Assembly (NCBI GenBank): GCA_013044035.1
Contig: JABEVE010000085.1
Location: 1 to 64,000, forward strand
Reading direction: 5' to 3'
DNA: 64,000 bases
Origin: Burkholderiales bacterium
Lineage (GTDB): Bacteria > Pseudomonadota > Gammaproteobacteria > Burkholderiales > Burkholderiaceae_C
Shown: positions 13,618 through 44,384 of the stretch, piece after piece
Numbering within the stretch: the stretch's first letter is position 1
Layout of the letters: each line of letters starts with the position of its first letter
Notes under the pieces: model-generated
What the model saw: only the letters and a program-made list of their open reading frames with translations
What the model was told of the DNA's origin: nothing
The model's database searches: none
Translations under genes and position numbers: made by a program

Positions 13618-13638
13618 TGCCGTGCCTACGGCATATCC
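13618..13638 (+). promoter_or_regulatory. ICE box copy 1 (TGCCG-N10-ATATCC)
   Basis: It lies 21 bases before the preferred start of the helicase-like gene. The N10 spacer makes TGCCGT-GCCT-ACGGCA palindromic. Its presence argues that the real start is downstream, at 13660. Confidence 0.6.
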
Positions 13639-13659
13639 AAGTCCACACCAGGGATGGAC

Positions 13660-16449
13660 ATGGACGCGCCAATTTTTACTCTCAACACCATCACCCAGGC
13701 TTCCCGCGAGGCGCGGGCCGCTGAGGAGCTGCAACTTGTGCGCGATGCAATGGCCGCTGCGCTGGCGTCGTACTTCGAGCAGCACGCCGCGCGAATCGCC
13801 TTGTACGAGGAGGCGCGTGAAGTCAACCGGCGCCGCCGAGCCCCTGGCTCGCCTAAGATGCAGATGCCTGCACCCCTGCCCCCGCTTGGGATCCTGGCGA
13901 CGGTCGGCCTGGGCAAAAGCGTGGGTGTCACACCAGTGGTGGGGATGGCGCACTCCGCTGGTCTGCCACTCGTCATTCTGGTGCCAACCCACCAACTTGC
14001 ACAGGAATATGCCGAGCGTTTGAAACCCTTTGGTGCGGTTGTCTACCAGGGGCGGCGTGAGCCGTCTCAGAGCCAGCCGAATGAAGCTCCAAGCGACCCA
14101 GGAGCGCACGCATGCTACCGCTTGGAGCGCGTGGCGGATGCTGGCGACCAGAATCATCGACCGGCGCAGGGGTTATGCGGCAAATGCCCCAACGGGCAGG
14201 CCGGCGTCCTGCAGTTTGTTAGCCGAGACCAGATGCGCCTTCAGCGCGCGGCGGACTTTTTCAAGGCCCGCGGCATGGATCCCGCAAAAACGCCGCCGTG
14301 CCAGTTTCTTTTTCGCGGCCTGCCCGATCAGCTCTCGGCGCGAATCCTGGTGGCGCCAATCGCGGCATTCAGCCAGGCGATGGGCGACTGGCTCGAAGTC
14401 GACCCGTTGTCTGCCGCGATCATGCGTCAGGCACAAAGGCTCGTGATCGTGGACGAACACATACCGATGGCTAGTGAAGTCGAAATCGACGCCGGCGACA
14501 TCAAAGTTTGGCGCAACCGGCTGGATGGGTTGACGGAGCGCCTGGAACAAACGATCGTCGCACTCGGGAAAAAAGACCATCTCACTCTGACTTCGGCGCA
14601 GACCGAAGAGCTGAGCCAGGCGCACTCGATGCTCGAACTGGCGCCAGCGGTCGACAAACTGTTTCGTGACCTCGGCGCGCAGATCGCCGGTGATCAGCCA
14701 ATCGACACCAAGCGCGTGATCGACATGCAGAAGCGGGTTACGAAAGCTGGTGGATTGACCGCAGGCACGGCAAAGTGGGAGAGGGTGAGTTATTCCCACG
14801 ATGATGATGATTTCTTCATTCCCTTGCGGGCCTTGTCTACTTTAGCGCGCAACTGTCAGGCAGGCGCGGTGCGGCAGGAAAAGGGGACGCTGTTTGTTTA
14901 TGAGACGAGCCCGATCGTCGAGTGGGCGCGAGACCGTGGCAGTGTCATTTTCCTCGACGCGACGATGAGCCTGGCGATGCGCCAGTTCATTCAAGCTCGC
15001 GGCGGCAAGGTGCACGAGGCGACCGCGAGCCAGAACATGCACGTCACGCGCATGACCGGGCATTTGTATGCTCGGGGGGATGTAAAAAAAGCCGCCTACC
15101 CCGATGAGGCGCGGGCGCACCTGGCGGAGATTCGCGATCTCATTGCGCCGCAACTGCCAAAACCGGCGGCCATCATCACCCATATGGCATATCTCCGTTA
15201 TTCTCAAGAGGCGCACCGGGCCGACGATGCTGCACAGGTCGCCGCGCAGCAGTTCGAGGCAGACACGGGCGTGCCGGTTGGGTGGTATGGGCGGCACGAC
15301 CGAGGTTTGGACTGCTGGGGCGGGCGGCATCTGGCGTTGGTCGGCATGCCGCTGTTGCCTGAAAACACCGTGGCCGGGCTGTACGCAGCGACGCGCGCGG
15401 CGTTGGCCGACTGTGGCATCCAGTGGCCCGCTTGGGACAAGGTGATGGACAAGGAGAAGCCAGACGCCGACGGTCCGCCGTTGCCGGTGATGGCCGAAGC
15501 GCGCGCCTGGCTGCTCGACGAATATTCACAGACCCTGGCGCAAGCCATCGGACGCAACCGGGCCGTGAATCGCCCTCGGGACGCCGCTCCGCTGCAAGTC
15601 CAGCTTTGGGGTGGCATCCAGACCGTCGAAATGGACTCGGCGATGGCAAAGTACGGTGTCGTGATCCACGATCGCGTTCGCAATCCGCGCAGCGTCGTCG
15701 GCCCGAAGCCGGATCTCGGGGCAGTTGATGAGGCGATTGAGATGGTGCGGGCCGCTGGTCAAAGCGTGAGCGTGCGCAGCGTGCGGGCGGCGCTGGTCGG
15801 CTTGCACCGCAGCGCATCGACAGAATCGATTCAGGGTCGCCTCAAGGCACTTCGCTCTAGCGGCGACCTGCCGGCGGCCACCCGCGTGCGCAGCGAGGAA
15901 GTGATCGCTGCCGCCCTCGCGCATATCCCTACAGAGGCGACCGATCCTTCGCTCGAAACCGTCGCCGCTGCGCACCAGCGCGAGGCGCATGACTGGACCC
16001 AACTGCAGGGGCAAGAAAAGATGGAGGTCGGTATGTGCATCGAGTCCAAAACCTCCGGACTGCACACCGAAACGACTGTACCGAATTCCCATAAAGATAC
16101 TAATAGTGGGAACTCGGAACAGTGCTGCACCACCACCGAACCCCAAACACAGGGGCAAGAAAAGATTTTCTTTGCCCCTGCTTTTGACTTGACCCCCACC
16201 CATGCAACTCTGACGGACGATGAACTCGAAGCCATGCTGCTGCAGGTGGCCGACGCCATTGACGATGAACTGGCGCGGGATGTCGCCCCTGACGACGACC
16301 CAGACCCGGACCGGTCTGGGGGCGGCCCAGGCGTGGGCCGCAAGGGCCGCCTTGGCGGGAACCACGGCCACCTTATGGGCCTCGCCGAACGGCCGCACAC
16401 CCATCACAACACATGGCGTGGCAGCCTGTCACCACCTCCCTTATCTTGA
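13660..16449 (+). CDS. SF2-helicase-like ATPase of the island
   Basis: The start at 13660 follows AGGGA at a good distance and gives 929 residues; the frame is open to 13558 but that part contains the ICE box. Helicase-like motifs appear in order: a Walker A variant ATVGLGKS, Walker B/DExH-like VIVDEH, a motif III-like VIFLDATMS, and a motif VI-like LAQAIGRNRAVNR. A CxxC-containing insert (GLCGKCPNG) may bind zinc. Near residue 690 onward a winged-helix-like stretch is followed by a low-complexity tail carrying two copies of the dispersed GGGGCAAGAAAAG repeat. It may unwind element DNA during replication or transfer; I cannot assign a named family. Confidence 0.6.
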   Translation: MDAPIFTLNTITQASREARAAEELQLVRDAMAAALASYFEQHAARIALYEEAREVNRRRRAPGSPKMQMPAPLPPLGILATVGLGKSVGVTPVVGMAHSAGLPLVILVPTHQLAQEYAERLKPFGAVVYQGRREPSQSQPNEAPSDPGAHACYRLERVADAGDQNHRPAQGLCGKCPNGQAGVLQFVSRDQMRLQRAADFFKARGMDPAKTPPCQFLFRGLPDQLSARILVAPIAAFSQAMGDWLEVDPLSAAIMRQAQRLVIVDEHIPMASEVEIDAGDIKVWRNRLDGLTERLEQTIVALGKKDHLTLTSAQTEELSQAHSMLELAPAVDKLFRDLGAQIAGDQPIDTKRVIDMQKRVTKAGGLTAGTAKWERVSYSHDDDDFFIPLRALSTLARNCQAGAVRQEKGTLFVYETSPIVEWARDRGSVIFLDATMSLAMRQFIQARGGKVHEATASQNMHVTRMTGHLYARGDVKKAAYPDEARAHLAEIRDLIAPQLPKPAAIITHMAYLRYSQEAHRADDAAQVAAQQFEADTGVPVGWYGRHDRGLDCWGGRHLALVGMPLLPENTVAGLYAATRAALADCGIQWPAWDKVMDKEKPDADGPPLPVMAEARAWLLDEYSQTLAQAIGRNRAVNRPRDAAPLQVQLWGGIQTVEMDSAMAKYGVVIHDRVRNPRSVVGPKPDLGAVDEAIEMVRAAGQSVSVRSVRAALVGLHRSASTESIQGRLKALRSSGDLPAATRVRSEEVIAAALAHIPTEATDPSLETVAAAHQREAHDWTQLQGQEKMEVGMCIESKTSGLHTETTVPNSHKDTNSGNSEQCCTTTEPQTQGQEKIFFAPAFDLTPTHATLTDDELEAMLLQVADAIDDELARDVAPDDDPDPDRSGGGPGVGRKGRLGGNHGHLMGLAERPHTHHNTWRGSLSPPPLS
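15909..15928 (+). promoter_or_regulatory. Intragenic copy of the ICE box
   Basis: TGCCG-N9-ATATCC inside the helicase-like gene. Its spacer and flanking base are identical to the copy at 33190. It may be active, a recombination relic, or chance. Confidence 0.35.
16006..16020 (+). repeat. Dispersed repeat CAGGGGCAAGAAAAG
   Basis: This in-gene copy encodes QGQEK. The same 15-mer recurs at 16150 and in near-identical form at several places up to 44302. Confidence 0.6.
16150..16187. repeat. Head-to-head pair of the dispersed repeat
   Basis: CAGGGGCAAGAAAAG (16150-16164) is followed directly by its inverted partner TTTTCTTTGCCCCTG (16167-16180 region), giving a long hairpin within the coding frame. 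The right arm continues as CTTTTG, like the copy at 22247. Confidence 0.65.
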
Positions 16450-16484
16450 TTCTCACGCCAATCAAGACGAAAGACGACGAACGA

Positions 16485-16500
16485 GCAAGCAAGCAAGCAA
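16485..16500 (+). repeat. (GCAA)4 tetranucleotide repeat before a ribosome-binding site
   Basis: Four GCAA units abut the GGAGA ribosome-binding site of the 16513 gene. Slippage here could alter the leader but not the reading frame. Confidence 0.7.
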
Positions 16501-16512: not shown

Positions 16513-16950
16513 GTGAATGACAAAGCCAACATTACCCCACGCAGGCAGCGCAACGAAACCGTCCGAGCTCACGGACTGCGCCAGGTCGGCGAGAAGCAGT
16601 GGCTCGACCCGGAAACCGCCAAAGCCTGCAAAGAGATGCGCATGGAAATGATGGCGTCACGCGAGCCGACGGCGCAGGCACTGGGGCTGTTCTTCTATCT
16701 GCGCGAGCCTATGCTGAAAGACCCGCATTTTCTGGTTGCCGCGTGGAAGCGTGATCAGCCGCAGCCGGTGCTGTTCGAGCGCCACGCCACCATCGCCGCA
16801 GCGCTCGGTGCCATGCAGCAGGTCTTTCGCCGGGAGCTGGTCAACTACAACGCGACGCCGTGGTCCGAGCTGCACGGTGATGCCGAGGCGTGGCGCTACG
16901 AAACCCGGTCGGCAGCCATCGAGGGTCTTGTCGGGACAGAGTTTTATTGA
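16513..16950 (+). CDS. Hypothetical protein
   Basis: The 145-residue product starts at GTG with a strong AAGGAGA ribosome-binding site 8 bases upstream. No family recognised. It is soluble, with a basic N-terminus (PRRQRNE) and a helical middle (AALGAMQQVFRRELVNY), and ends in GTEFY. It lies between the helicase-like gene and topoisomerase III without its own ICE box, so it is probably cotranscribed with the helicase-like gene. Confidence 0.6.
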   Translation: MNDKANITPRRQRNETVRAHGLRQVGEKQWLDPETAKACKEMRMEMMASREPTAQALGLFFYLREPMLKDPHFLVAAWKRDQPQPVLFERHATIAAALGAMQQVFRRELVNYNATPWSELHGDAEAWRYETRSAAIEGLVGTEFY

Positions 16951-17111
16951 GTCCCAATCGCCGAGATCCCGGCATCGAAGACTTTTATTTCCATCCTGTC
17001 CCCGCAGATTTGGCAGCGGCACTGGACGCCTGAGCGCCCCGATTTCTTTGCCTTTGCCGTGGCGCCGCGCCAGCGGCGTGCCTTGGTTTTGTCTTCTCGC
17101 CCATCCCACGG

Positions 17112-17131
17112 TGCCGCCCCCGCGCATATCC
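17112..17131 (+). promoter_or_regulatory. ICE box copy 2 (TGCCG-N9-ATATCC)
   Basis: It lies 81 bases before topB. The box runs into a small hairpin GCATA-TCCC-TATGC, which is also found at copy 15 (44377). Confidence 0.6.
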
Positions 17132-19372: not shown

Positions 19373-19959
19373 CGCCGGCGCTCTTACTCCACCTGTGCGC
19401 GCCCCAGGTTTCGGTGGTGACTATGGCGGCCATCATCGAGCAGGAAAGCGGGGGCAATCCGCTTGCGCTGCACGACAATACAACGGCAAAATCATATCGG
19501 CCCGCATCCCGAGCGCAGGCGGCCAAACTGGCGGCCGCCCTGATTCAGCAGGGTCACTCAGTCGATATCGGCCTTGCGCAGATCAACAGTAAAAACCTGC
19601 CGGGACTTAATCTCGATGCAAAACAAGCCCTTGACCCCTGCACCAACATCCATGCGGCTCAGATAATTCTGTTGCGCGGATGGAAACAATCGGGTGGCGA
19701 TTTGCGCGGCGCACTGGCGGCCTATAACACGGGCAATGCCGGGTCCGCGGTTGGGCAGAAATATGCGGCGCGGGTTTTCGGGCAGGCTGGGGTGGTCGTG
19801 CCAGCTATTCCTGGGGGGAAACTTGCGAGCTGGTCGTTTGCCGATTCCGGCGTCGCGACAGGCAGCAGTTTGCCGCCTGTGCGCGCTGTTGTGACATGGA
19901 CCCCGCAGGCCAGCCCATTAACCCCGAGCGCTGGGGCGCTCGCGGTGGCGCTGCGTTGA
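19369..19959 (+). CDS. Lytic transglycosylase of the conjugation system (VirB1-like)
   Basis: The 196-residue product begins at the ATG overlapping the topB stop. The catalytic region reads AAIIEQESGGNP with the general-acid Glu, followed by VDIGLAQIN and AAYNTGN, the standard SLT signature order. It would open peptidoglycan locally for assembly of the mating channel. The C-terminus is Pro/Thr/Ser-rich. No clear cleavable signal peptide, although the N-terminus is hydrophobic. It is convergent with the sigma-like gene. Confidence 0.85.
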   Translation: MTPALLLHLCAPQVSVVTMAAIIEQESGGNPLALHDNTTAKSYRPASRAQAAKLAAALIQQGHSVDIGLAQINSKNLPGLNLDAKQALDPCTNIHAAQIILLRGWKQSGGDLRGALAAYNTGNAGSAVGQKYAARVFGQAGVVVPAIPGGKLASWSFADSGVATGSSLPPVRAVVTWTPQASPLTPSAGALAVALR

Positions 19960-19968
19960 CCACCAGCT

Positions 19969-20601
19969 TCAGACTTGCGCGAGGATCGACTTACGCAAAA
20001 CCGGCATTAATCGCGCGAGATCGTCGCCGAGATTCATCGACTTGATTTTCGCGATAATCTCTTTCTTGCGCTTTGCTTTCATAACGCGATTTTCACGCTC
20101 ACTTAAACCAGTCGCGTCAATCCAATCGGCCGCGCTCGTATCAAATAAAGCAAAGTCTCGCTCACACACCCCGATTTTTCCCAGAATATTTAGCAAATTC
20201 TCCTTGCGGTCCTCGTCTTCTTCGATGATCGCTGTGTCGGAATCCATGATTTCGCGGCGTACATAATCCGTTTCATCCTTATCATGATCCTCGATTCTTT
20301 CTGCGACAGACGGAATTGAGTAGTTGTCTTGGATTATGCCAGGCTGGCAGTATCGCGCGATCTGGTGGAAAAAAGTGACCTGATCAATATCGTCGTTTTC
20401 TGGTTTTTTGTGCAGATAATCCAGCACACGCACAACGATTTCATCTGCGAGATCTTCGAGATTTGAGAACAACCCTCCGTTCGATCGGCTGAACGCAGGG
20501 TGGCTGCTCCACAATCTTGCTGTTCGTTTTGCCTCTGCCATCAAGGCAACTGGGGGCCAGTTGCGGAGCGGTGTGGCTACAAGATCAGGTTTGGTTGCCA
20601 T
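19969..20601 (-). CDS. Sigma-factor-like protein (divergent ECF type), putative
   Basis: The start at 20601 has an AGGAAGA ribosome-binding site and gives 209 residues. Residues about 46-95 look like sigma region 2: LEDLADEIVVRVLDYL corresponds to the AEDLVQEVFLR-type helix, and FFHQIARYCQPGIIQD to the FRAWLYRIARN-type helix. Residues about 140-190 look like region 4 (ERDFALFD, then WIDATGLSERENRVMKAKRK as a helix-turn-helix). An acidic linker lies between them. This assignment is pattern-based and could be wrong; the alternative is an unrelated DNA-binding protein. The gene is visibly AT-richer than its neighbours and points against the conjugation genes. Confidence 0.45.
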   Translation of the reverse strand: MATKPDLVATPLRNWPPVALMAEAKRTARLWSSHPAFSRSNGGLFSNLEDLADEIVVRVLDYLHKKPENDDIDQVTFFHQIARYCQPGIIQDNYSIPSVAERIEDHDKDETDYVRREIMDSDTAIIEEDEDRKENLLNILGKIGVCERDFALFDTSAADWIDATGLSERENRVMKAKRKKEIIAKIKSMNLGDDLARLMPVLRKSILAQV

Positions 20602-20635
20602 TTTCGTCTTCCTTTGCTTTTCGGTGGTTTCAGTT

Positions 20636-21049
20636 TCAAACAGAAAAAATGGGCAGAGCGAGTTCAGATTGCCATGGAGACCCTTTTGGGCGACGCTGGA
20701 TCGGAACATCGATGACGCGTGCAACAGCGCGCGCAGCCCAAATCCCCAGCATCAAAACGAAGCGGAGAAAGTCGGCGATTATTTGGCCGCCAGCGGATCT
20801 GACTTTGTGCGCTAATTTTTCCAGGGCAATCTCCGCATGCCGGGAAACGACATAACCCCGCGCCGCGCCTTTCGCCTCGCTTTTCTTTGCCTGTGAGGCA
20901 AGAAATGCCAAGCGCCGCCCCGCGCGGCCGAGTTTCCATGTTTTGAGAAAAGCAGTATTAGACTTGCAGAGTGCAAGCCAGTTATAACCAGCTTTTTTGT
21001 TTGCAAGAGAATCGATGAGTTCTTGGGTCCGCTGCGCGACTGTTGCCAT
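20636..21049 (-). CDS. Hypothetical basic protein, upstream partner of the sigma-like gene
   Basis: From the ATG at 21049 (AGGAGC ribosome-binding site) the product is 137 residues. It is rich in Lys, Arg and Ala, with a short hydrophobic stretch FLRFVLMLGIWAARAVA near residue 100. The remainder suggests an amphipathic helical protein (QRTQELIDSLANKKAGYNW). It lies 34 bases before the sigma-like gene on the same strand, so the two form a small operon divergent from trbB. An anti-sigma role is conceivable given the single hydrophobic segment, but nothing else supports it. Confidence 0.55.
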   Translation of the reverse strand: MATVAQRTQELIDSLANKKAGYNWLALCKSNTAFLKTWKLGRAGRRLAFLASQAKKSEAKGAARGYVVSRHAEIALEKLAHKVRSAGGQIIADFLRFVLMLGIWAARAVARVIDVPIQRRPKGSPWQSELALPIFSV

Positions 21050-21127
21050 TGCTTTGCTCCTATAGTGCAGTGACCACATTTTTCAGCACGTCGGAGAATT
21101 AAAGCAAATCGCAACACATAATCGGCA

Positions 21128-21180
21128 AGGAACAACGAATAATCAACAAACAAACAGCTGAGGAACAGCGCAGGAACAAC
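21128..21180. repeat. Three direct repeats AGGAACARC in the divergent region
   Basis: Copies lie at 21128-21136, 21161-21169 and 21172-21180, between the sigma-like operon and trbB. They could be regulator-binding or iteron-like sites. Confidence 0.45.
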
Positions 21181-21250
21181 AAAAAACACCAAGCAACTAG
21201 CCCAAAGACGTTGATTGGCGCACCACCCCCGAAAAGAAAATGTTTGTAAC

Positions 21251-21270
21251 TGCCGCCCCGCTCGATACCC
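21251..21270 (+). promoter_or_regulatory. ICE box copy 3 (TGCCG-N9-ATACCC)
   Basis: It lies 22 bases before trbB. This is the C variant of ATAYCC. Confidence 0.55.
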
Positions 21271-21292
21271 CAGCATCAATCAGGAGTAGGGA

Positions 21293-22246
21293 ATGAGCAG
21301 CGAACAACAAACGTCGAAGGCGCGGCAGACTGAGGCGCTGCGCCGCGCGCTGGGTCCGCAAATCCTTGGATTTCTTGAGGACACGAAGGTTGTCGAGATC
21401 ATGCTCAACCCGGACGGTAGCCTCTGGGTGGACCGGCTCGGAGCAGGCATGGAACGGATCGGTGAAGTGCCTGCTGTGCAGGCGCTGACCATCGTCAGCA
21501 CCGTTGCGGCCATGCTCGATACCGTGGTGACACCCGAGCGCCCCATCCTTGAATGCGAACTGCCTTTGGATGGCAGTCGCTTTGAATCCCTGATTCCTCC
21601 TCTGGTTGAGCGTGCGAGCTTTGCGTTGCGGAAGAAGGCGGCGCTGGTCTTTACCTTAGCCGACTATGTGGCCAAGGGAATCATGACCCAAGCGCAACGC
21701 CAAGCGATTGAAGATGCCGTCGCGGCGCGACAGAATATTCTTGTGAGCGGGGGCACCGGATCTGGGAAGACTACGGCAGCTAACGCCATCCTGGACGCCG
21801 TTGCAAAAATCGACCGTGAGCACCGCGTCGTCGTGATTGAAGACACCCGCGAACTGCAAGTCAACGCCGAAAACGTCGTGTTCCTGCGCACCAGCGACAA
21901 CACCGACATGACGCGGCTGCTGCGCGCCACCATGCGCCTGCGCCCGGACCGTATCGTGGTGGGCGAGGTGCGTGACGGCAGCGCCCTGGCTTTGCTGAAA
22001 GCTTGGAATACCGGACATCCTGGCGGAGTGGGGACGGTGCATGCCAACGACGCCAGCGCGGCGCTGATCCGCATCGGCCAGCTAATACAGGAAGCGGGTG
22101 TGCCGCCGAATCCTGAATTGATCTCCGAAGCGGTCAACATCGTCGTCTCGATCAAGCGCACGGCCACAGGACGCAAAGTCGAGGAAGTCGTAGCGGTGCG
22201 CGGATGGTCGGCCGGTGGTGGATTCCACGTCGAGCGACTGGCCTGA
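21293..22246 (+). CDS. trbB: Conjugative transfer ATPase TrbB (VirB11 family)
   Basis: This hexameric ATPase at the inner face of the type IV secretion channel powers pilus assembly and DNA transfer. The 317 residues include Walker A SGGTGSGKTT, an Asp-box (VVIEDTRELQ), the region RLRPDRIVVGEVRDG with Walker B, and the His-box GGVGTVHAND. The ribosome-binding site is AGGAG 10 bases before the ATG. It opens the rightward mating-pair gene cluster but is separated from trbC by mobilisation genes, unlike the IncP order. Confidence 0.95.
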   Translation: MSSEQQTSKARQTEALRRALGPQILGFLEDTKVVEIMLNPDGSLWVDRLGAGMERIGEVPAVQALTIVSTVAAMLDTVVTPERPILECELPLDGSRFESLIPPLVERASFALRKKAALVFTLADYVAKGIMTQAQRQAIEDAVAARQNILVSGGTGSGKTTAANAILDAVAKIDREHRVVVIEDTRELQVNAENVVFLRTSDNTDMTRLLRATMRLRPDRIVVGEVRDGSALALLKAWNTGHPGGVGTVHANDASAALIRIGQLIQEAGVPPNPELISEAVNIVVSIKRTATGRKVEEVVAVRGWSAGGGFHVERLA

Positions 22247-35261: not shown

Positions 35262-35274
35262 TCAGGAGATTGTC

Positions 35275-36078
35275 ATGTTCAAAAGCGCGGAATTCGAAGC
35301 CGACTTCGGTAAGCAAAGCCCCGAGTCCACCCGTCAGGGAATGTCCGCAGCAATGCGCGGCGAGCCTGCACAGTTTGCTGTCCCCGTGTTTCGCATCATT
35401 GGCGACACGATGTGCATGGACGGCGCACAGAAGGTGGAGGTCAACCCCGACAAGGCGGCGATTTATCCCGGGTCCCAGTTCGGCGCAGCCTCGTTCTCGA
35501 TCATCCCGGTCACCGAAGCCATGCGCTTCAAAATGATGACCGGCGAGGCGATGGCCGCCAAAGACGCACCAGACCCTGCCGAGTTCGGTGGACAGGTGGT
35601 CGTGACGCATTCGGTTGCTTCCGCCCTGGCGATCTACCACGCCACGGGCGAGCGCGCCATCGTCATGCCGGCCTTCACCCCGGAAAACATGAAGACTGTG
35701 GCCGAGTTCGCTAAGAACGCGCTCAAGGCCAAGGACATCGTGGTGGTGCCGGACAACACACCGCAGTCCAAACGCGCAGCCCGCGAGGCTGCACAAGCCG
35801 TGGATGGAAAGGTCGCTCAGATCGATTACGGGGCCGAGCAAAAGAACCTGCTTGGCGTCATGGCGGAAGCGCACCAGTGGGCGGACAAACTGTTTCCCTC
35901 GCCAGAAACCGTGCTTGATGAAGTCCGGCGCGACAAAGCTGTGCAGGACGCCGCGAAGCGATACATACGTGAGCCGATAGCCAACGCCCTGAAGTGGGAC
36001 AAGTCTCCCATTCCGACACTGATCCAGGGCCGCCCGGTTGCTGTGCAACGCCAGCCCGTTGCGGACATCGAGCGGTAG
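35275..36078 (+). CDS. Hypothetical cargo protein B (paralogue of the 34518 gene)
   Basis: The 267-residue product begins at the ATG after CAGGAGA. Its core VVVTHSVASALAIYHATGER, FTPENMKTVAEFAK, IVVVPDNTPQSKRAAREAA is shared with the upstream protein and looks Toprim-like. Flanking regions differ, so divergence is old. It ends VADIER, the same tail as its paralogue although the preceding 30 residues are unlike. It probably belongs to the same transcription unit as 34518. Confidence 0.6.
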   Translation: MFKSAEFEADFGKQSPESTRQGMSAAMRGEPAQFAVPVFRIIGDTMCMDGAQKVEVNPDKAAIYPGSQFGAASFSIIPVTEAMRFKMMTGEAMAAKDAPDPAEFGGQVVVTHSVASALAIYHATGERAIVMPAFTPENMKTVAEFAKNALKAKDIVVVPDNTPQSKRAAREAAQAVDGKVAQIDYGAEQKNLLGVMAEAHQWADKLFPSPETVLDEVRRDKAVQDAAKRYIREPIANALKWDKSPIPTLIQGRPVAVQRQPVADIER

Positions 36079-36084
36079 GCAGTT

Positions 36085-36105
36085 TGCCGTGTCCACGCCA
36101 TAACC
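36085..36105 (+). promoter_or_regulatory. ICE box copy 12 (TGCCG-N10-ATAACC)
   Basis: It lies 40 bases before the 36146 gene. The variable Y position is A here. Confidence 0.5.
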
Positions 36106-36145
36106 CTGCATCCGCAAACCATCAAGCTCTCACCAGGAGAACCAC

Positions 36146-37789
36146 ATGAGCGCACTTGACACACTCGACACGCTGATCAGCCAGGCCCAATCGGACACCT
36201 CTTCCAAGCCGCAACTCGAAACGCAGGAGGCGCCCGCCGCTTCTCTTGCCCCTGGTGTTGCCGTGGCCCCTGATTCCGTGCCTGCCGCCGACGCCGAGTT
36301 GTCGGTGGAGCAGCACAAGCGCCTGGACCTGCTGCACGAGTACGAGGAACTGTCCGCCCCGGCGCGCACCGAGCGCAACGCCGCGATCGATGCGTTCGAT
36401 GCCGACTGGCGCGAGCGCTGGATAAAGCTGCAGAGCGAGGTCGAGGAAGCCCGCGCCAAGCGCTCGGAATCGCTGACTGCCGAGGGCGTGGATGCGCATT
36501 TGCACGAGAGCCTGCTGGCGAAGGAAACGGCCGCCCTGGTGGAAGACTTCGAAGCGCGCAAGGACGCCGCGGCCCGCGATCTGGACAAGTCCATGCCACG
36601 TCCGGCCCGCTGGGTCGATTTCCTGATTGAAAAGGCGCAGGAGAACCCCGGCGATCCGGTGCTGGAATCACTTCTGGAAGAAGCGAAGAAGGCCCCGGAT
36701 CCAGGCATTGAAGGATTCGGCGGCGTGCCTGCCAAAGCCGTCACCCTGGCCGACCTCGTGCACAACATCGACAAGGACGGCCAGATTCACTACAAGCGCG
36801 GCCTGCGCACTGTGATCCATGATCGCGGCTCTCGTCTGGACGTGCAGCGCAACGATGACCGGGACATCGAAGCGGCCCTCAAGATTTCCGCGCAGAAGTT
36901 CGACCTGCAAAAGGGGCTGATGCTGACCGGCGATCTGGCTTTCAAAGTCAAGGCCGCCGAGATCGCTGGCAAGCTGGGCTACCCGTTACAGAACAGCGAA
37001 CCCGAAGTGCTGATGGCCTGGAAAAAGGGCCGTGACATGAACCCGCAATTCAAGCGTGCGGTCCTGCCAAGCGTCGAGCGCGGCATCACCGGCGATCTGG
37101 CCGTGGTCAAGCCCATTGTCGAACGCACCGGCCCGGTGCAACTGCGCGCTGATCCGCTGACGGTTGGAGAGGCCGACAAGTTGGGCGTCACGCTCAATGG
37201 AGACGGTGTGGTGGTGATGCCTGCTGAGCGCGTGCTGGCAGCAGGGGCCGCATTCCGCGACACCCAGAACTCTGCGCTGCGCGTACTGGCCGAGGCCGAT
37301 CTACGCAAGCCTGATGGCGGCGTTGATATCGGCAAGCTCAAAGAGCTCGCGCCCAACCTTACAAGCAACGGCTCCCTCACTGAACTGGCACGGGATGTGG
37401 TGATCGTGCGCGATGACCGGGTGATCCGCACCCGTGAATCGCTGGATAAAGAGCTGGAGCCGGTGTTCAAGGTGGCTTACATGACCGCTGGCGAGCGCGC
37501 GCGGGAGAACGAGGAAGTGGCCGCGAGCATCGCCAAAGCGCAGGGGGCTGGGCTCGCCGCAGCGCAGGAACAGGCGCAGGCGGCGGATGAAAAGAGCCTG
37601 CTGGTGCGCAACGCCGATCAATCGCTGGACAAAGAACTGGCGGAGAAGGCGGCGAAGAAGGATGGCCGCGAAGAGAAAGAGGAGCAGCGCGAGATCAAGT
37701 CCGACGAAAAGGCCATTCCCGCGCCTGCCGTCTTCCGCTCCGGGCGCACCGGTCGGAGCCTGGACGTGGGCCAGGGCATCGGGCTCTGA
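36146..37789 (+). CDS. LPD7-domain protein
   Basis: The 547-residue soluble product starts after CCAGGAGA. Its first 190 residues are charged and probably coiled coil ([18 protein letters not shown]). Residues about 210-300 hold an LPD7-like module ([40 protein letters not shown]) akin to the relaxase C-terminus. The rest is Lys/Glu-rich, ending GQGIGL. LPD domains are found in large polyvalent proteins of mobile elements thought to enter the recipient with DNA. Exact function unknown. Confidence 0.65.
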
Positions 37790-37791
37790 GC

Positions 37792-38163
37792 ATGGATCGC
37801 CCGGCGCAGGCGCAACGCGACGAGTTGGTGCGCAATGCGCTGGCAAGAGACGACCGGCTCGTTCGGCATCTTGCCGACTGGATCGGTCGCGATCTGTCTG
37901 GCTACGACAGGCAGAACGGCCTGCCGTGGCGGATTGAAAGCGAGATCGCCCTGATGCTGAACGGAATCAACGAACTTTTGGAGAAGACTATGAACGCTGC
38001 CACACCAGTCGAAATTCTCAAGCGCGATGCGCAGCTTTTGGGCGCCGTCGTCGATCACGATCTCGCACCCGTCCCCGCTGATGCCGTTGATGCTTCTGCG
38101 CATGAGCGGGATCTGCTGGACGCCCTGGAACTTGGTGTCGAGCCCGTTGGACTGGGAGTCTGA
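37792..38163 (+). CDS. Small hypothetical protein between the LPD7 and ArdC genes
   Basis: The 123-residue product starts 2 bases after the LPD7 stop, and the ArdC gene starts 2 bases after its own stop, so translation is coupled across all three. No family recognised; it is acidic and predicted helical (RLVRHLADWIGRDLSGY, IALMLNGINELLEK). Confidence 0.6.
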   Translation: MDRPAQAQRDELVRNALARDDRLVRHLADWIGRDLSGYDRQNGLPWRIESEIALMLNGINELLEKTMNAATPVEILKRDAQLLGAVVDHDLAPVPADAVDASAHERDLLDALELGVEPVGLGV

Positions 38164-38165
38164 AC

Positions 38166-39977
38166 ATGAACATCGAGGTTGATGACCTGAACCCGGACCT
38201 GCGGCTTGGTGTGCAGGCGTATAGCTTTCTCGCTGCCGATAGGGGGTCTGGAGCGTATCCGTTCCCCGACTTCGCGGACATTGTGAACGCACGCTACAAC
38301 TCGCCTAACGCGCGGGCAATCGCCGATGCGTTCCGGGCTGTGCCAGGGGGCGTTTTGACGATTAACCCTGATCGGACGGTATCCGTCGATCTGCCGGATC
38401 CTCGTGCGATGGCACTTCAGCAAGATGCGCTTGACGAATCGCTGACTCCGGTCGCAACCACGCCCGCGCCGACGCGCAGCGCACAGGAAGTGGCAAGAAA
38501 AGAGCCAGCACCAGACAAGGCCCCGCCGCGCGACTTCCGGCAGGAGTTCACCGACAAGGTGATTGCGGCGATCGAGTCCGGCCAGGCGCTGCCCTGGGAT
38601 AAGCCTTGGCACACCATGCAGGGACTCCCGCGCAATGCGGTATCTGGCAAGACCTACGCAGGCGGTAACCGAGTGGTGCTGGGCCTGGTGGCAATGGAGA
38701 AGGGGTACACCGACCCGCGCTGGATGACCGTCAAGCAATCGAACGACCTGGGTGGTTTTGTCCGCAAAGGCGAGAAGGGCGTGATGATCGAGCGTTGGGA
38801 CAGCAAGCCGTTTTGGCAACGTCGGGATGTCGAACTCAAGCTCGGTGGACGCCCCGTAATGGTGGATGCGAAGCGCGGCGTAGATGCGGCGGGTGTGCAT
38901 CTCGTTGGTGGCCAAGTAGTTCCTGCGGCGCAGATCACGGTCAAGCATGACGGCAAGGACTACACCTGGAAGCAGGCCGAGCGTGCGTTGGATCTGCTGG
39001 TGGGCCGCAACTATGTCGTGTTCAACGCAGAGCAATGCGAGGGCCTGAAACTGGAGCCGCTGGCGCCGCGTCAGGACATTCCGATGGACAAGCGCGGCGA
39101 GCAGTTGATGACAGCGATGCAGGAAGATGGTGTGCGCTTCGTACACCAGGGGTCGCAGGCGTACTACTCGCCCGCCGGCGACCTGATCGCACTGCCTCAA
39201 CGCGAGACCTTCAAGTCGGTGGAAGGCTACTACGGCACGGCACTGCATGAGATGGGACACGCCACTGGCGCTGAGAAGCGCCTGAACCGCGACGGCATCA
39301 CGGGCGGCCACGCCTTCGGATCCGAGGGCTACGCACGCGAAGAGTTGAGGGCTGAGTTGTTTTCCGCGTTCATGTCGGCCGAAACCGGCATTCCTCATGA
39401 CGATGACCAGCACACGGCGTATCTCCAGTCGTGGGCCAAGGCGCTGAAGCAGGACAAGAACGAAATCTTCCGGGCCGCCGCCGAGGCTGGCAAAGCGGTG
39501 GACTATGTGCTGGGCAAAGAGCAGGACTTGCTGCAGAAGATCGATCGCATTTACGGACAGCTTGTCGGGCCGGACACGGCGGATTTGTCGAAAGCACCGC
39601 ATGAGTTGACGATTGCCGAGTTCAGCAAAATAGCCCACGCGGAAAAGCTGGGGCCTGGCCACGGTCGGCAGTGGGAGGTGTTCTACGGCAAGGAGTCTCT
39701 GGGGTTCGCTGATGGGCTAGCCATCGAGGGCGCTTACCGGCAGGTGCATGAGCGTGAGGTGAACAACGCGCTGTATGGCAATCAGCCGGATTCGCCAGAT
39801 TTTTTGCGCAAGTCCATGCCGCCCCCGCATGTGCTGGCCGACTATCCAGCGCTGCAAAAGTTGTGGGCGCGCGTGATTGATGCGCAACAGCCTGATGCTA
39901 CGAAGCATCAACACCCTGCGCCGCATCCGCCACAGCTCCGCGGTCCGGCCCGGCGAGACGCGGAGATTGAGCGCTGA
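38166..39977 (+). CDS. ardC: ArdC-like antirestriction protein with zincin metallopeptidase domain
   Basis: The 603-residue product has an N-terminal element-specific region (1-110). An ArdC-type ssDNA-binding domain follows (FTDKVIAAIESGQALPWDKPW, GGNRVVLGLVAMEKG, VRKGEKGVMIERW), then a metallopeptidase domain with HEMGH (His361, Glu362, His365) and a downstream EELRAELFSAFM glutamate. ArdC proteins protect incoming DNA from restriction and are known to move to recipients with the transferred strand in other systems. A C-terminal extension ends in DAEIER. It is longer than plasmid ArdC (about 300 residues). Confidence 0.85.
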   Translation: MNIEVDDLNPDLRLGVQAYSFLAADRGSGAYPFPDFADIVNARYNSPNARAIADAFRAVPGGVLTINPDRTVSVDLPDPRAMALQQDALDESLTPVATTPAPTRSAQEVARKEPAPDKAPPRDFRQEFTDKVIAAIESGQALPWDKPWHTMQGLPRNAVSGKTYAGGNRVVLGLVAMEKGYTDPRWMTVKQSNDLGGFVRKGEKGVMIERWDSKPFWQRRDVELKLGGRPVMVDAKRGVDAAGVHLVGGQVVPAAQITVKHDGKDYTWKQAERALDLLVGRNYVVFNAEQCEGLKLEPLAPRQDIPMDKRGEQLMTAMQEDGVRFVHQGSQAYYSPAGDLIALPQRETFKSVEGYYGTALHEMGHATGAEKRLNRDGITGGHAFGSEGYAREELRAELFSAFMSAETGIPHDDDQHTAYLQSWAKALKQDKNEIFRAAAEAGKAVDYVLGKEQDLLQKIDRIYGQLVGPDTADLSKAPHELTIAEFSKIAHAEKLGPGHGRQWEVFYGKESLGFADGLAIEGAYRQVHEREVNNALYGNQPDSPDFLRKSMPPPHVLADYPALQKLWARVIDAQQPDATKHQHPAPHPPQLRGPARRDAEIER

Positions 39978-39984
39978 CGCGCCG

Positions 39985-40004
39985 TGCCGCCCGCTTGCAT
40001 ATCC
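39985..40004 (+). promoter_or_regulatory. ICE box copy 13 (TGCCG-N9-ATATCC)
   Basis: It lies 39 bases before the 40044 gene and 7 bases after the ArdC stop. Confidence 0.6.
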
Positions 40005-40015
40005 CTGCAAGCGGG
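39990..40015 (+). repeat. Perfect 10-bp hairpin presenting TATCCC as loop
   Basis: CCCGCTTGCA (39990-39999) and TGCAAGCGGG (40006-40015) pair around TATCCC. The conserved half of the box is thus the loop. Confidence 0.7.
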
Positions 40016-40043
40016 GCTTCCGCTTGCCCTCGGTAATTAAGCT

Positions 40044-40631
40044 ATGAAAAAGCTCATCCTCTCCTCAACCCTGGCCGCCGCTTTGTGCGCTTTGGCCCCT
40101 GCCTCGTTTGCCGCCACCACCGTGTCGGCCGGCGTGGATCGCATGAATATTGGCGGCGGACGTGCAATGAATGAACTCAACGTCGGCGTGATCAACCAAA
40201 GTGGCGGCATGCTGTACAGCGCCACGGCGGCGCTGAGCAGCCCGTTTGGCGGAATTAACGGCGTGCAGTCGCGCTCGTTTGCTGCAAGCGTTGGCACCGT
40301 CGCGGCGTCTGCCGGCTCAGTTGAGCTGGCGCCGACGATGGAGATTGGCTACGACAAGCTCGGCGACGGCGCGGTTAAGCACGTCGCCGCTGGAGTCGGC
40401 GCGATGTACGGCGCAGGCGACGTGACCGTTTTTGGCGGACTCAAACTCGGTCGAGCCTTTGGAGCCAACAACGGTTTCGATAGCGGAGCTTACACCGCCG
40501 AAGACATCGGGGTCGGCTATCGCGTCGGCCCAGGCTTGGTCACGGTTGCCCTGAGCAACACGCAGCTGCCGACCGTCGGCGGGCACATCAACGAAAACCG
40601 CGCCGCTGTGGGTTTTACGGAGGCCTTCTAA
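40044..40631 (+). CDS. Exported, probable outer-membrane beta-barrel protein
   Basis: The 195-residue product has a signal peptide (KKLILSSTLAAALCALAPASFA). The mature chain is Gly/Ala-rich with alternating hydrophobic residues (VTVFGGLKLGRAFG, GVGYRVGPGLVTVALS) and ends in phenylalanine (GFTEAF), the classic outer-membrane insertion signature. No named family. It is an isolated unit in the conjugation block with its own ICE box before and terminator after, so it may change the cell surface, for example in exclusion or contact. That role is inference. Confidence 0.6.
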   Translation: MKKLILSSTLAAALCALAPASFAATTVSAGVDRMNIGGGRAMNELNVGVINQSGGMLYSATAALSSPFGGINGVQSRSFAASVGTVAASAGSVELAPTMEIGYDKLGDGAVKHVAAGVGAMYGAGDVTVFGGLKLGRAFGANNGFDSGAYTAEDIGVGYRVGPGLVTVALSNTQLPTVGGHINENRAAVGFTEAF

Positions 40632-40670
40632 AAACACAGACAACTCCGCGCGCTTTGTCGCATAGCCTAA

Positions 40671-40707
40671 GCCCGGCCCGCAGTGATGCGCGCCGGGTTT
40701 TGCTTTT
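40671..40707 (+). terminator. Rho-independent terminator after the 40044 gene
   Basis: GCCCGGC/GCCGGGT stem followed by TTTGCTTTTT. It is closely related to the terminator at 45014. Confidence 0.75.
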
Positions 40708-40718
40708 TGGCCTTGTTA

Positions 40719-40738
40719 TGCCGGTGTTTTGCATATCC
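40719..40738 (+). promoter_or_regulatory. ICE box copy 14 (TGCCG-N9-ATATCC)
   Basis: It lies 12 bases after a terminator and 32 bases before the UvrD-like gene. TCCGT at its end can pair with ACGGA of the ribosome-binding site. Confidence 0.65.
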
Positions 40739-40770
40739 GTGCATCGGAATCCGAGATACGGAGATGCGGC

Positions 40771-42393
40771 ATGAAGGAACGATCGGAACAGCTAACGGGC
40801 ATCGTTCGCGCGGCCATTAACAAAGGCAAGCTCAACCCGACGGCTGAACAGGCTGCCGCGGTTTCCGCTTTTGCCACCGGCGGCAGCCTCAAGATTGTTG
40901 CTGGAGCCGGCACGGGCAAGACCTCGACGCTTAAGCTGATCAGCGAATCCACGGCGAGGCGCGGCGTCTACATCGCATTCAACACCGCTATGGCGGACGA
41001 TGCGAAGCGGCGCATGCCGCAGAACGTCGCCGCATCAACCGCCCATTCGCTGGCGTTCCGCAACGTCGATCCGGGCTTTCGCAGCAAGATCGGCTCTCGC
41101 CTGCCTGCGAGCATGGCGGCAGAAGCCGGCGGCGTTCGCGGCATGCTGGAACTTCCTGGGAACAACAGGGATGGCGGACAGTTAGTGATTGCTCAAGCAA
41201 CAGCGGGCTACTTCATGCTGGATTGGGTGCGTCGCCACTGCATGAGCGCCGATGCGCAAATCACAACGCTTACCGCTCCAGTAGGTCGCATGCTGGATAT
41301 TATGGGTATCGACCGAGAGCGCGCTACGTCGGAGGACTGGAAGCGGGCGCGGGATATCGCGGGGTTCTTGTTGCCCGCTACGGAAAAAGTGTGGGGTCGC
41401 ATGAGCAATCCGCGCGACACGTTCCCCGCGTCGCACGACACTTACCTCAAAGTGTGGGCGACATCGAATCCGCAGATCAATGCTGATTTCATATTGTTCG
41501 ACGAAGCGCAAGACGCTAATGCGCTCATGCTGCAGATCGTCGGCGCGCAATCCGCTCAGAAGATTTATGTGGGCGATCCAAACCAGCAAATCTATGCATG
41601 GCGCGGCGCGGTCAACGCTATGCAGAGCATCAAGACCGACCATGAAGCTCAGCTGACGGAATCCTTTCGCTTTGGGCCTGAGATTGCCGAGTTTGCCAAC
41701 CACGCCCTGGCGCTTTGCGGCTCCGACATGCGACTGACGGGCAGAGCTACTGCCGGGCGCGATTTCGGCGGCGGCAAACCCATGGTCGCGACACTTTGCC
41801 GCACGAACGCCTCTGTTGTGCGGGAATTGACGATGACCAGGGATATTTCAAAGGTTCACGTCGCCGGCGGCGTCTCGCAAATCGTCGGTCTGCTGAACGG
41901 CATGCGCGATCTGCGCGACAACGATCGCACGGGCAACCCTGAGTTATGCCATTTCAAAGGCTGGAAAGAACTCGTCGCGCACGCATCGGCAGAGTCTGAC
42001 GATCTCTCAGCGCTGTTCAAGCTCACCGATGGCGGTGACCGGATTGAGCCGTTGGCCGAGATGCTGGAGAAAACGGCGCGGGTTGCGCGGCCCGATTCGC
42101 ATGTGATATCCACCGCGCACAAGTGCAAAGGCCTTGAGTGGGTCGATGTGAACCTGGCGGAGGACTTCCGCACCCCATCTCACGCGCGTTGGTCCCAAGA
42201 AGAAGCCAACCTGCTGTACGTGGCGGGTACGCGCGGCATGCGGTCGTTATCGCTGGATGACGCGCTTGCCTCGGCCCTGGAAAGCCAGTCGAGCTACCGG
42301 GAGGCGAGCCAGCATCGGCAATCTGAGACGGAGCGAGCGCCGAAAAAACCCTCACCCCATCGCTCGCTGGAAGAAATCGGCGTGGATTTTTGA
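40771..42393 (+). CDS. UvrD/Rep-family helicase
   Basis: The start at 40771 has CGGAGA upstream and gives 540 residues. Superfamily 1 motifs are in order: Walker A VAGAGTGKTSTL, DEAQDAN, VGDPNQQIYAWRGA, TESFRFG, STAHKCKGLEWVDV and LLYVAGTRGMRSL. It is shorter than UvrD and lacks large 2B insertions. It probably unwinds element DNA or counters recombination in the recipient. It is followed after 23 bases by the coupling-protein gene. Confidence 0.85.
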   Translation: MKERSEQLTGIVRAAINKGKLNPTAEQAAAVSAFATGGSLKIVAGAGTGKTSTLKLISESTARRGVYIAFNTAMADDAKRRMPQNVAASTAHSLAFRNVDPGFRSKIGSRLPASMAAEAGGVRGMLELPGNNRDGGQLVIAQATAGYFMLDWVRRHCMSADAQITTLTAPVGRMLDIMGIDRERATSEDWKRARDIAGFLLPATEKVWGRMSNPRDTFPASHDTYLKVWATSNPQINADFILFDEAQDANALMLQIVGAQSAQKIYVGDPNQQIYAWRGAVNAMQSIKTDHEAQLTESFRFGPEIAEFANHALALCGSDMRLTGRATAGRDFGGGKPMVATLCRTNASVVRELTMTRDISKVHVAGGVSQIVGLLNGMRDLRDNDRTGNPELCHFKGWKELVAHASAESDDLSALFKLTDGGDRIEPLAEMLEKTARVARPDSHVISTAHKCKGLEWVDVNLAEDFRTPSHARWSQEEANLLYVAGTRGMRSLSLDDALASALESQSSYREASQHRQSETERAPKKPSPHRSLEEIGVDF

Positions 42394-42416
42394 AATTCAA
42401 CATTAGGGGCAAAGAC

Positions 42417-44306
42417 ATGGCATCGACCTCGCATCAACCGGACCTGTATCACATCCCTCGCGCGCAGAAGGACATCACACGTTTTGTCTGGACGGCGCTG
42501 GGCCTGTTCACCCTGATCGTGCTGGCGTCCATGTGGGCGGCAACTGAGTACACCGCTTGGGCGCTGCAATGGAGCCCGATGCTTGGCAAGCCCATGCTCG
42601 CACCCGCCATCTATTTCCCGTCCGACGTTCTGGTCTGGACGTGGAAATACAACTCGCTGGAGTACGGTCTGGCCGTCATGAAAGTGTTCGAGAACGCGCA
42701 CATGATCATGGGTGTTGGGGGTTTGCTGTCTTTGCTGCTGCCGGTTGCTCTTGCATTTCGACGCACGCGCAAGGCGGCGGGAGAAAAGAACGATCTGCAC
42801 GGCTCGGCGCACTGGGCAGAGCCCGAAGAGGTTGAGGCCACGGGTCTACTGCCGAATGAGAAAAATGCGGGCGGCGTGTTCTTTGGCGACTACGACGACC
42901 AGTACCTGCGGCACGCCGGGCCGGAGCACATCCTGGCCTTTGCCCCGACCCGATCCGGCAAAGGGGTTGGCATCATTCTGCCAACACTGCTGTCTTGGAA
43001 GCACTCTGTCCTGGTGAACGATATCAAAGGCGAATGCTGGCATTTCACCGCTGGCTGGCGCAGCAAGGCACTTGGCCAGCGCTGCATCAAGTTCGACCCT
43101 GCTAATCCCGGATCGGCCCGGTTCAACCCGCTGGCCGAAATCCGAATGGACGGCAATCTGATCAAGGATGTGCAGAACATCGCCACCATGATCGTCGATC
43201 CGGACGGAAAGGGGCTGAACGACCACTGGGCCAAGACAGGCTTTGACCTGATGACCGGAATCGTTCTGTTCGTGCTGCTGTATGACCCGATCCAGGACAA
43301 GTCGCTGGCGACAGTGCAGGCCATCCTGTCCGACGGCGGGCCGATTCGCGAACTGGCCGAGCAACTGGCTGATGCGTCCGAAGGAGAGGAGGGCGGTAAG
43401 CGCATGGAAGGGTCTGCCGCAGTGATGACGGCGATCCGCGACACGGCGCACGCGATGCTCAATGATGGGCTGGCTGATGAGTTCTCCGCGCACGGCTGGC
43501 GTGCTGCGGCGCAGGCGGCGCAATCGTTCTTGAACAAGGCGGCAAATGAGGCGTCCGGCGTGCAGTCCACCGCGCTGTCGTTTCTGTCGCTGTATCGCGA
43601 TCCGATTGTGGCTGAGAACACGCGAGGCTCGGATTTCACGCTGGAGTCATTGATGCGGCAGGCCACAAGCCTGTACCTGGTCGTGTCGCCGTCGGATAAA
43701 GATCGCCTCAAGCCGCTGCTACGCCTGATCCTGAACCAGACTGTGCGCCGGTTGACCGAGAGCATGGACTTTGACGCCAGTGGCGGCAAGTCGCGCTATC
43801 CCCATCGCCTGCTGCTGGCGATCGATGAGTTTCCGTCGCTCGGCAAGTTGGATGTCTTTCAAGAAGCCCTGGCGTTCATCGCTGGCTACGGCATGAAGGC
43901 GTTGCTGATCGTGCAGGACTTGAGCCAGCTCTACGCTGCATACACCAAGGACGAGTCGATTATCAGCAACTGCCACATCCGCATCGCCTACGCGCCGAAC
44001 AAGATTGAGACGGCGGAACTGCTGTCGAAGATGGCGGGCACGGCGACGGTGGAGCACACGCAGCGGCAGTATTCAGGCAACCGCCTGGCCGTCGTTCTGC
44101 AGAACGTGAACACCAACGAGCAAATCGTGTCACGTCCGCTCCTGACGGCGGACGAGTGCATGCGCCTGCCCCCCGAGGATGAACTGGTGTTCGTGGCCGG
44201 CCACGCACCGATTTACGCGAAAAAGATCATTTACTACCAGGACCCGGAGTTCGCCGCCCGCTGCGCAATCCCGGCGCCAAAGGAGACAGGCAGGGGCAAG
44301 GACTGA
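42417..44306 (+). CDS. traG: Type IV coupling protein (VirD4/TraG family)
   Basis: The 629-residue product starts at 42417 after AGGGG. Two N-terminal membrane segments are followed by the Walker A motif APTRSGKGVG, the IKGECW region, Walker B LLLAIDEFPSLGKL and IVQDLSQLYAAY. It recruits the relaxosome and protein substrates to the secretion channel, so it would be the reader of any C-terminal translocation signal. In IncP plasmids traG is near traF, as here. The C-terminus carries a dispersed-repeat copy. Confidence 0.95.
   Translation: MASTSHQPDLYHIPRAQKDITRFVWTALGLFTLIVLASMWAATEYTAWALQWSPMLGKPMLAPAIYFPSDVLVWTWKYNSLEYGLAVMKVFENAHMIMGVGGLLSLLLPVALAFRRTRKAAGEKNDLHGSAHWAEPEEVEATGLLPNEKNAGGVFFGDYDDQYLRHAGPEHILAFAPTRSGKGVGIILPTLLSWKHSVLVNDIKGECWHFTAGWRSKALGQRCIKFDPANPGSARFNPLAEIRMDGNLIKDVQNIATMIVDPDGKGLNDHWAKTGFDLMTGIVLFVLLYDPIQDKSLATVQAILSDGGPIRELAEQLADASEGEEGGKRMEGSAAVMTAIRDTAHAMLNDGLADEFSAHGWRAAAQAAQSFLNKAANEASGVQSTALSFLSLYRDPIVAENTRGSDFTLESLMRQATSLYLVVSPSDKDRLKPLLRLILNQTVRRLTESMDFDASGGKSRYPHRLLLAIDEFPSLGKLDVFQEALAFIAGYGMKALLIVQDLSQLYAAYTKDESIISNCHIRIAYAPNKIETAELLSKMAGTATVEHTQRQYSGNRLAVVLQNVNTNEQIVSRPLLTADECMRLPPEDELVFVAGHAPIYAKKIIYYQDPEFAARCAIPAPKETGRGKD
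44291..44302 (+). repeat. Dispersed repeat copy CAGGGGCAAGGA
   Basis: It encodes the last residues of the coupling protein. Confidence 0.45.
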
Positions 44307-44324
44307 GCCTTCCTGTCGCAGTCA

Positions 44325-44357
44325 GCCCGGCCAGCCGCAAGGTTTGCCGGGCTTTTT
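44325..44357 (+). terminator. Rho-independent terminator after traG
   Basis: GCCCGGC/GCCGGGC stem, loop CAGCCGCAAGGTTT, then TTTTT. Confidence 0.85.
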
Positions 44358-44364
44358 CAATTTG

Positions 44365-44384
44365 TGCCGGTCTCCTGCATATCC
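44365..44384 (+). promoter_or_regulatory. ICE box copy 15 (TGCCG-N9-ATATCC)
   Basis: It lies 7 bases after a terminator and 71 bases before the 44456 gene. GCATATC (44377-44383) is complementary to GATATGC (44446-44452), which overlaps the GGAGA ribosome-binding site. Confidence 0.65.

Follow-up and report, generated by a model that had tools for sequence, protein, structure and literature searches.

The window analysed here, a 64-kb stretch of DNA from a Burkholderiales bacterium, carries a Trb-type conjugative element placed right of the tmRNA gene, and a short sequence box recurs in front of the genes of this element. The contig of the window, C30, reaches 71.5 kb, in a genome (G000) of 3.70 Mb. 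Transfer genes were assigned with Pfam and NCBIfam, and include those for topoisomerase, VirB1, TrbB, NikA-like TraJ, TraI-type relaxase, TrbC, TrbE, and TrbJ; further assignments are TrbL, ArdC-type, UvrD-type, TraG, TraF-type peptidase, TrbI, TrbG/CagX, and TrbF/VirB8 proteins. A TrbK/Eex-like lipoprotein was assigned below the profile cut-off. Since the transfer genes are Trb-type, an ICEclc-type element is ruled out. The tmRNA gene (11668-12028) lies directly left of the element and may be the insertion site. The box, TGCCG-N9/10-ATAYCC, and its variants occur at the following positions (aa, amino acids; ORF, open reading frame).

13618-13638, + strand: box before a 929-aa gene, ATG at 13660; gap 10
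17112-17131, + strand: box before the topoisomerase gene, ATG at 17213
21251-21270, + strand: box before trbB, ATG at 21293
22288-22307, + strand: box, ATATCT variant, before the traJ/NikA-like gene
24640-24659, + strand: box before trbC
27878-27897, + strand: box before a 108-aa gene
28316-28336, + strand: box before a 464-aa gene; gap 10
30476-30495, + strand: degenerate box, ATATGC, before the trbK-like gene
31369-31388, + strand: box before trbL
33190-33209, + strand: box before a 397-aa gene; follows a terminator-like hairpin
34468-34488, + strand: box before a 247-aa gene; gap 10
36085-36105, + strand: box, ATAACC, before the LPD7 gene; gap 10
39985-40004, + strand: box before a 195-aa gene
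40719-40738, + strand: box before the UvrD-like helicase gene; follows a terminator-like hairpin
44365-44384, + strand: box before a 178-aa gene; follows a terminator-like hairpin
15909-15928, + strand: exact box, exception, inside ORF 13558-16449; next start 1284 nucleotides on
31292-31311, - strand: exact box, exception, 4 nucleotides before the ATG of a 70-aa ORF, no known gene

The window contains 14 exact copies of the pattern (13 on the + strand and one on the - strand), compared with a mean of 0.07 and a maximum of one in 100 shuffles of the same DNA, which bears out the claim of an earlier, sequence-only reading that a shared box characterizes the conjugative block. That reading had called for a genome-wide search; in the own genome 24 exact boxes were found, 17 of them on C30 and seven elsewhere (one on the small contig C58, where it precedes a possible GTG start, and six on other contigs), vs. 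three matches to the pattern read backwards. Chance repeats are ruled out by the shuffle, genome-wide and placement counts. The list of 15 sites given earlier needs correction in part: 12 are exact, but 22288 (ATATCT), 36085 (ATAACC), and 30476 (ATATGC) are imperfect, and two exact matches, 15909 (+) and 31292 (-), had been overlooked. All sites in that list are on the + strand as described, but the generalization fails for 31292 (-) and for boxes just past the window. The left arm and the defence operon, described as free of the box, have no exact match (none left of 13618 or from 44384 to the window end). The first part of a defence-like block (46090-53432), with genes for a WYL protein, an SNF2/NOV_C helicase, and a DUF1156 protein, lacks the exact box.

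The placement of the boxes is gene-directed. On C30, a same-strand start follows 15 of the 17 exact boxes at a distance of 21-81 bases, in keeping with the 21-91 bases reported earlier, with gene starts chosen by hand for this count; one chosen start, 65972(-), is a base out, but it belongs to an imperfect box outside the count. Only 2.8% of strand positions fall 15-95 bases before a start, giving P = 8e-22 for the placement on C30. The box follows gene orientation, because trbF, a - strand gene past the window, has a - strand box, and two + strand genes past the window are preceded by + strand boxes (66771 and 67801). The - strand sites past the window are 65770-65789 and a TACCG variant at 66003-66022, both before - strand ORFs.

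Conservation of the boxes was followed in related elements. A trbB search of a genome-contig collection kept 80 loci, 18 of which (L050-L067) were scanned for near-boxes. In L050, from a betaproteobacterial metagenome-assembled genome, boxes stand in front of the same genes as in the window element. The contig of L050, G399:C180 (88.9 kb; hereafter R), is collinear with the window element, and the shared transfer proteins are mostly 60-95% identical. A score matrix built from 18 window-element boxes found 20 sites of score at least 16 in R; eight Markov controls gave 0-2 apiece. Of the window element's 19 box genes (a set taking in 30476 and four genes past the window), 15, trbL among them, have a box-preceded homologue in R. 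The trbB box recurs in R (with one mismatch) and in a further genome, G244. The imperfect sites of the window have counterparts before the homologous genes in R, namely R 14171 (the identical variant ATATCT), R 30734 (ATAACC), and R 23059, which is intact (ATATCC). The spacers differ between the two elements: the gap is 10 in 16 of 20 R boxes and 9 in 14 of 18 window-element boxes. TT directly precedes TGCCG in all 20 R boxes.

A relaxase search of 299 family genomes gave eight matches besides the own genome, identities being 40-42% within its genus and genus g49 and 32-35% in others. These eight genomes hold 3-11 exact boxes each, in scattered positions, which rules out a box in all relatives. 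A relaxase search of the genome-contig collection found no relatives. In G244, two of the exact boxes do stand before ORFs, and box-bearing fragments lie before a topoisomerase gene, before trbB, and at one further ORF. With a stricter pattern, applied to 399 family genomes, G000 has 10 matches and every other genome 0-5.

The sequence following the box has the character of a transcription start. Fifty boxes, chosen by the box itself, were aligned (19 from C30, 20 from R, and 11 from other fragments); the set omits the exact box 15909, a near-site at 20838, 30476, and those R sites that no gene follows, and it keeps 31311(-) and R 16476, both 4 bases before an ATG, so that their messages would be leaderless. 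Counted from the end of the box, 47 of 50 sites have a pyrimidine at base 4 and 45 of 50 a purine at base 5. The pyrimidine-purine pair at these positions is present in 44 of 50 (C30 16/19, R 17/20, other fragments 11/11), vs. a background of 0.24 at bases 10-39 and 21 of 50 at the next best offset; P is 3e-21 assuming independent sites, an assumption that related sites do not satisfy. A pyrimidine-purine step is typical of bacterial transcription start sites. Because of this signature, the gene orientation, the conservation before homologues, and the enrichment and placement, the box most likely represents a promoter core. Of the activator site, unusual promoter, or RNA element offered earlier, the unusual promoter is thus favoured by start signature, orientation, conservation, and the want of a strongly conserved block upstream in the window element. 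Taking base 5 as +1 places ATAYCC at -10 to -5 and TGCCG at roughly -25 to -20.

Ordinary promoter classes do not account for the box. A scan for sigma-70-type promoters found none in 31000-45000 (2.7 in shuffles) and none in 19900-21320; these empty scans and the lack of a conserved -35 in the window element rule out ordinary sigma-70 promoters. The 60 bases upstream of the window-element boxes contain no strongly conserved block, and only two columns (-23 and -2) barely pass the mark. In R, T-rich and CG columns appear in the flank upstream of TGCCG (-10 to -1), the T-rich ones lying 8-10 bases before it. Sigma-54 (-24/-12) promoters have GG-N10-GC with fixed spacing; they are ruled out by the T before G in all 18 window-element boxes and by the variable gap of 9 or 10. 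The box may instead be the operator of an element-wide repressor covering weak host promoters, as the near-palindromic copies at 31292 and 28316 and the presence of about one site per transcription unit would suit, but this is very improbable, as the window-element boxes lack a conserved -35/-10 pair and the start signature follows the box itself.

The hairpins near the boxes bear on a role in RNA. Those before 33190, 40719, and 44365 have z-scores of -2.6, -3.3, and -4.8, with T-runs behind them. The terminators proposed earlier at these three places are thus supported by folding hairpins with T-runs, but a terminator scan (loops of at most 8) found none before 33190 or 44365 and only two weaker ones before 40719 (40692 and 40707); overall it gave 15 hits vs. 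13.3 in shuffles. As the terminator-like hairpins end just before the three boxes, little room is left for an upstream promoter. In a set of 48 leaders, with start codons chosen by hand and 31311(-) and R 16476 also left out, 14 equal or surpass the best 5% of their own shuffles in folding and 34 fall short; two of the 48 (R 58996 and L047 7529) were wrongly ended. Leader folding is therefore above chance, but not general. The hairpin of the trbL leader is nearly identical in the window element and R. The box could act at the RNA level, belonging to the 5' leader and working jointly with the hairpins that often follow it directly; the folding leaders and the shared trbL hairpin speak for this. 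The 34 leaders that miss the folding mark, and the upstream hairpins that leave a promoter little space before three boxes, make this very unlikely. A known RNA family for the box is ruled out, since tmRNA was the sole family reaching threshold in an Rfam scan of the window.

A candidate reader of the box is encoded within the element, where an operon of two - strand genes lies between virB1 and trbB, opposite to its neighbours.

19969-20601, - strand: 210-aa sigma-factor-like protein, second gene of the operon; proposed to recognize the box
20636-21049, - strand: 137-aa partner gene, first gene of the operon
21068-21084, - strand: conserved block TGTGGTCACT, directly before the partner gene

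Counterparts of the operon occupy the same position in R and in G244, with identities of 34-36% and 48-56%, respectively, and no other fetched locus scored meaningfully. The three loci with the operon are those known to have a box before trbB. In alignment searches, three of 22 genomes matched, namely those holding the three loci, and the other 19 were negative. Wider sets gave one of 399 order genomes, one of 13 in the genus of G244, and two of the 299 genomes in G399's family, one being G399 and the other showing the coordinates of G244; genomes overlap between these searches. The TGTGGTCACT block precedes the operon in all three loci and is a likely site of the operon's own control. No box was seen before the operon, which is therefore probably controlled separately.

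The assignment of the 210-aa protein was approached through predicted structures. In the PDB, nine of the window model's ten best matches are sigma factors or RNA polymerase complexes in which the sigma chain is the part aligned, and rank 8 is a chain of an RNA-guided transcription complex. With the R model, ranks 1-25 are all sigma factors or RNA polymerase complexes at the sigma chain, and rank 26 is unrelated; matched RNA polymerase chains were taken as sigma by convention, the listing giving entry titles. Among these 25 matches of the R model is 3hug, an entry of RslA bound to a sigma -35-binding domain, one chain of which has a template-modelling (TM) score of 0.58 by target length. In a comparison with viral structures, the best matches include several phage proteins annotated as sigma factors, rank 1 among them, all at E of at least 0.06. 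In our own reading the predicted helices fit a sigma-2 plus sigma-4 plan. Profiles of extracytoplasmic function (ECF) sigma factors give weak matches to the R protein: TIGR02937 (sigma70-ECF) over nearly the full length at E 0.013, and the NCBIfam SigZ profile at E 0.021, far below cut-off. The R stretch AEDRAQEICLRVLGRL resembles by eye the stretch AEDVSQETFLRAYRAI of an ECF factor in the window's genome. No relatives of the protein were found among viral contigs (alignment search) or plasmids, and its profile gave three weak, unrelated matches among sequences of solved structures. The weak models suggest a sigma-like fold, and the 210-aa protein is likely, though not proven, to be a sigma factor; the partner may, as a guess, be an anti-sigma factor or a co-factor.

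With somewhat better than even confidence, the box is read as the core of a promoter class private to the conjugative element and recognized by an element-encoded, divergent ECF-type sigma factor. ATAYCC would be the -10-like part, with transcription starting at the purine 5 bases behind the box, and TGCCG at about -24 would be a second contact. The ECF-type sigma factor encoded at 19969-20601 (-) would direct the host RNA polymerase to the boxes and switch on most transfer units together, and the product of 20636-21049 may act as its inhibitor or co-factor. The operon itself would probably be under separate control.

Several observations weigh against this assignment. The co-occurrence of box and operon amounts to three loci, from which the search profile itself was built. 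The predicted local distance difference test (pLDDT) values of the models are 62 (window) and 58 (R), no PDB structure matches below E 0.04, and full-length matches mostly have TM scores of 0.15-0.3 and root-mean-square deviations above 10 Å, so that the domain arrangement is not matched. Both models derive from the same three sequences, and the fold search was run without a control protein. The TIGR02937 match to R reaches 15.1 bits, far short of the profile's cut-off of 42.9; the window and G244 copies match no NCBIfam family, a Pfam scan of two copies gave nothing sensible, and hhalign comparison with five ECF factors of the genome was not above shuffles (its score was reached by 21 of 150 locally and by 5 of 150 globally). 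Two exact boxes, 15909 and 31292(-), have no known gene behind them. For four of the 19 box genes R offers no sound homologue behind a box: for 27878, 28316, and the 66022(-) ORF none was found, the last having been compared from a start one base off, so that its row is no fair test, and for the 33190 gene the box-preceded match is weak (E 0.001), to a different gene, and was not counted; its better homologue, R 27902, has no box listed.

The geometry is also atypical. ECF promoters have -35 and -10 elements about 16-18 bp apart, and ordinary ECF factors contact the -35, whereas TGCCG here lies near -24 and the gap between TGCCG and ATAYCC is 9-10; a distance of 18-19 is obtained only with bases 4-7 as the -10. 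Either the factor or a partner touches -24, or the true -10 is at bases 4-7 and transcripts start about 13 bases on. The latter arrangement, with a sigma factor reading TGCCG as -35 and bases 4-7 (Y-R-W-S) as -10 and a start about 13 bases after the box, would bring the spacing of 18-19 bp near that of ECF promoters, and the four columns are conserved in 47, 45, 40, and 44 of 50 boxes. It would, however, leave ATAYCC, the best conserved part along with TGCCG, in the spacer, and a few ribosome-binding-like stretches begin 8-12 bases after the box (R 61327, window 21251). This geometry is improbable.

Shared boxes before transfer genes are known from other mobile elements, where the master controls described, SetCD and BisDC, are activators (PMC4344509, PMC9286271, PMC7423338). 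In SXT/R391, SetCD is reminiscent of FlhDC, and its box is common to transfer operons of the integrative conjugative element (ICE), with poorly conserved -35/-10 elements (PMC4344509). In ICEclc under BisDC, a 27-bp motif is common to eight of nine bimodally expressed promoters (PMC9286271, PMC7423338). The likeness to these transfer-competence promoters is one of description. The box could serve as an operator for an activator of the element, which would recruit the ordinary holoenzyme of the host; the divergent operon would then encode the activator pair. The dyad symmetry of some boxes (e.g., TGCCGTG-NN-CACGGCA at 28316) and the adjacency of the two-gene locus to the transfer genes would agree with this, as would the precedents of SetCD and ICEclc. 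SetCD boxes, however, are described as lying directly upstream of or overlapping the -35 (PMC4344509), whereas the present box ends 4 bases before the inferred start. The operon proteins have no FlhC/BisC-like Pfam match, and the predicted fold, if weakly, matches sigma factors. A search of the own genome for DUF2857 (PF11198), the domain of BisC, was negative, but it matched in no control either. An activator is considered rather unlikely.

Closer in type to an element-encoded sigma factor is SigN (ZpdN) of the Bacillus subtilis plasmid pBS32, which has weak ECF homology and drives many plasmid operons from one promoter consensus (PMC6751061). It is alike as a weakly ECF-like factor of a mobile element with one shared consensus, but its promoter letters are other, and it is likened here by description, not by sequence. 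As tabulated, most of the SigN regulon concerns nucleotide synthesis, DNA-related processes, or unknown functions, and a conjugation machine is not among the entries (PMC6751061). Phage-encoded sigma factors are also alike, as mobile elements with a sigma of their own, and several are among the best viral structure matches; they differ in being phage proteins, and are likened by structure match.

Further boxes and fragments were noted around the element and its relatives. The letters of the 15909-15928 box equal the 20 letters of the 33190 box; it sits in the 3' part of the long ORF and is perhaps an internal promoter. In the ORF with the topoisomerase, the first part (16736-17112) is taken to resemble the end of a tyrosine integrase, and 41 residues match L049 at 93%. 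Gap-9 boxes, mostly before possible starts, are also present on G000:C58 (L049:5672-), G399:C60 (L135), G399:C160 (L137), and G399:C353 (L136). As these further fragments bear gap-9 boxes, parts of a second such element seem to be present in the window genome and likewise in G399. An ISL3-type transposase lies at L001:10194-11441, close to the contig end. In related elements another common box, approximately CGCAGAGTCNGGGYARGGCGCC, stands before trbC, trbF, and other genes, and also near trbB. A scan for it with at most two mismatches gave 16 matches, of which 10 look alike.

L023:5844-; L026:6671+ and 2655-; L027:9659-; L030:2485-: alike CGCAGAGTCNGGGYARGGCGCC-type boxes
L031:14160- and 6580-; L035:16240+; L051:9708+ and 5694-: the remaining alike boxes

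The divergent operon and its sigma-like product between virB1 and trbB are new here, and in the part of the literature searched no sigma factor encoded by an ICE and driving its transfer genes was found. It is proposed tentatively, at slightly less than even confidence, that a divergent sigma factor of the element's own runs the whole programme of type IV secretion and DNA processing, from half-sites just 9-10 bp apart, and that the promoter code may change from lineage to lineage, as the other letters of the shared box in related elements would suggest. Because the candidate regulator gene, the sites of the promoters, and the base at which transcription should begin are all specified, each is directly testable. 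If true, a private sigma factor would free the transfer genes from host control and could explain their coordinated switching.

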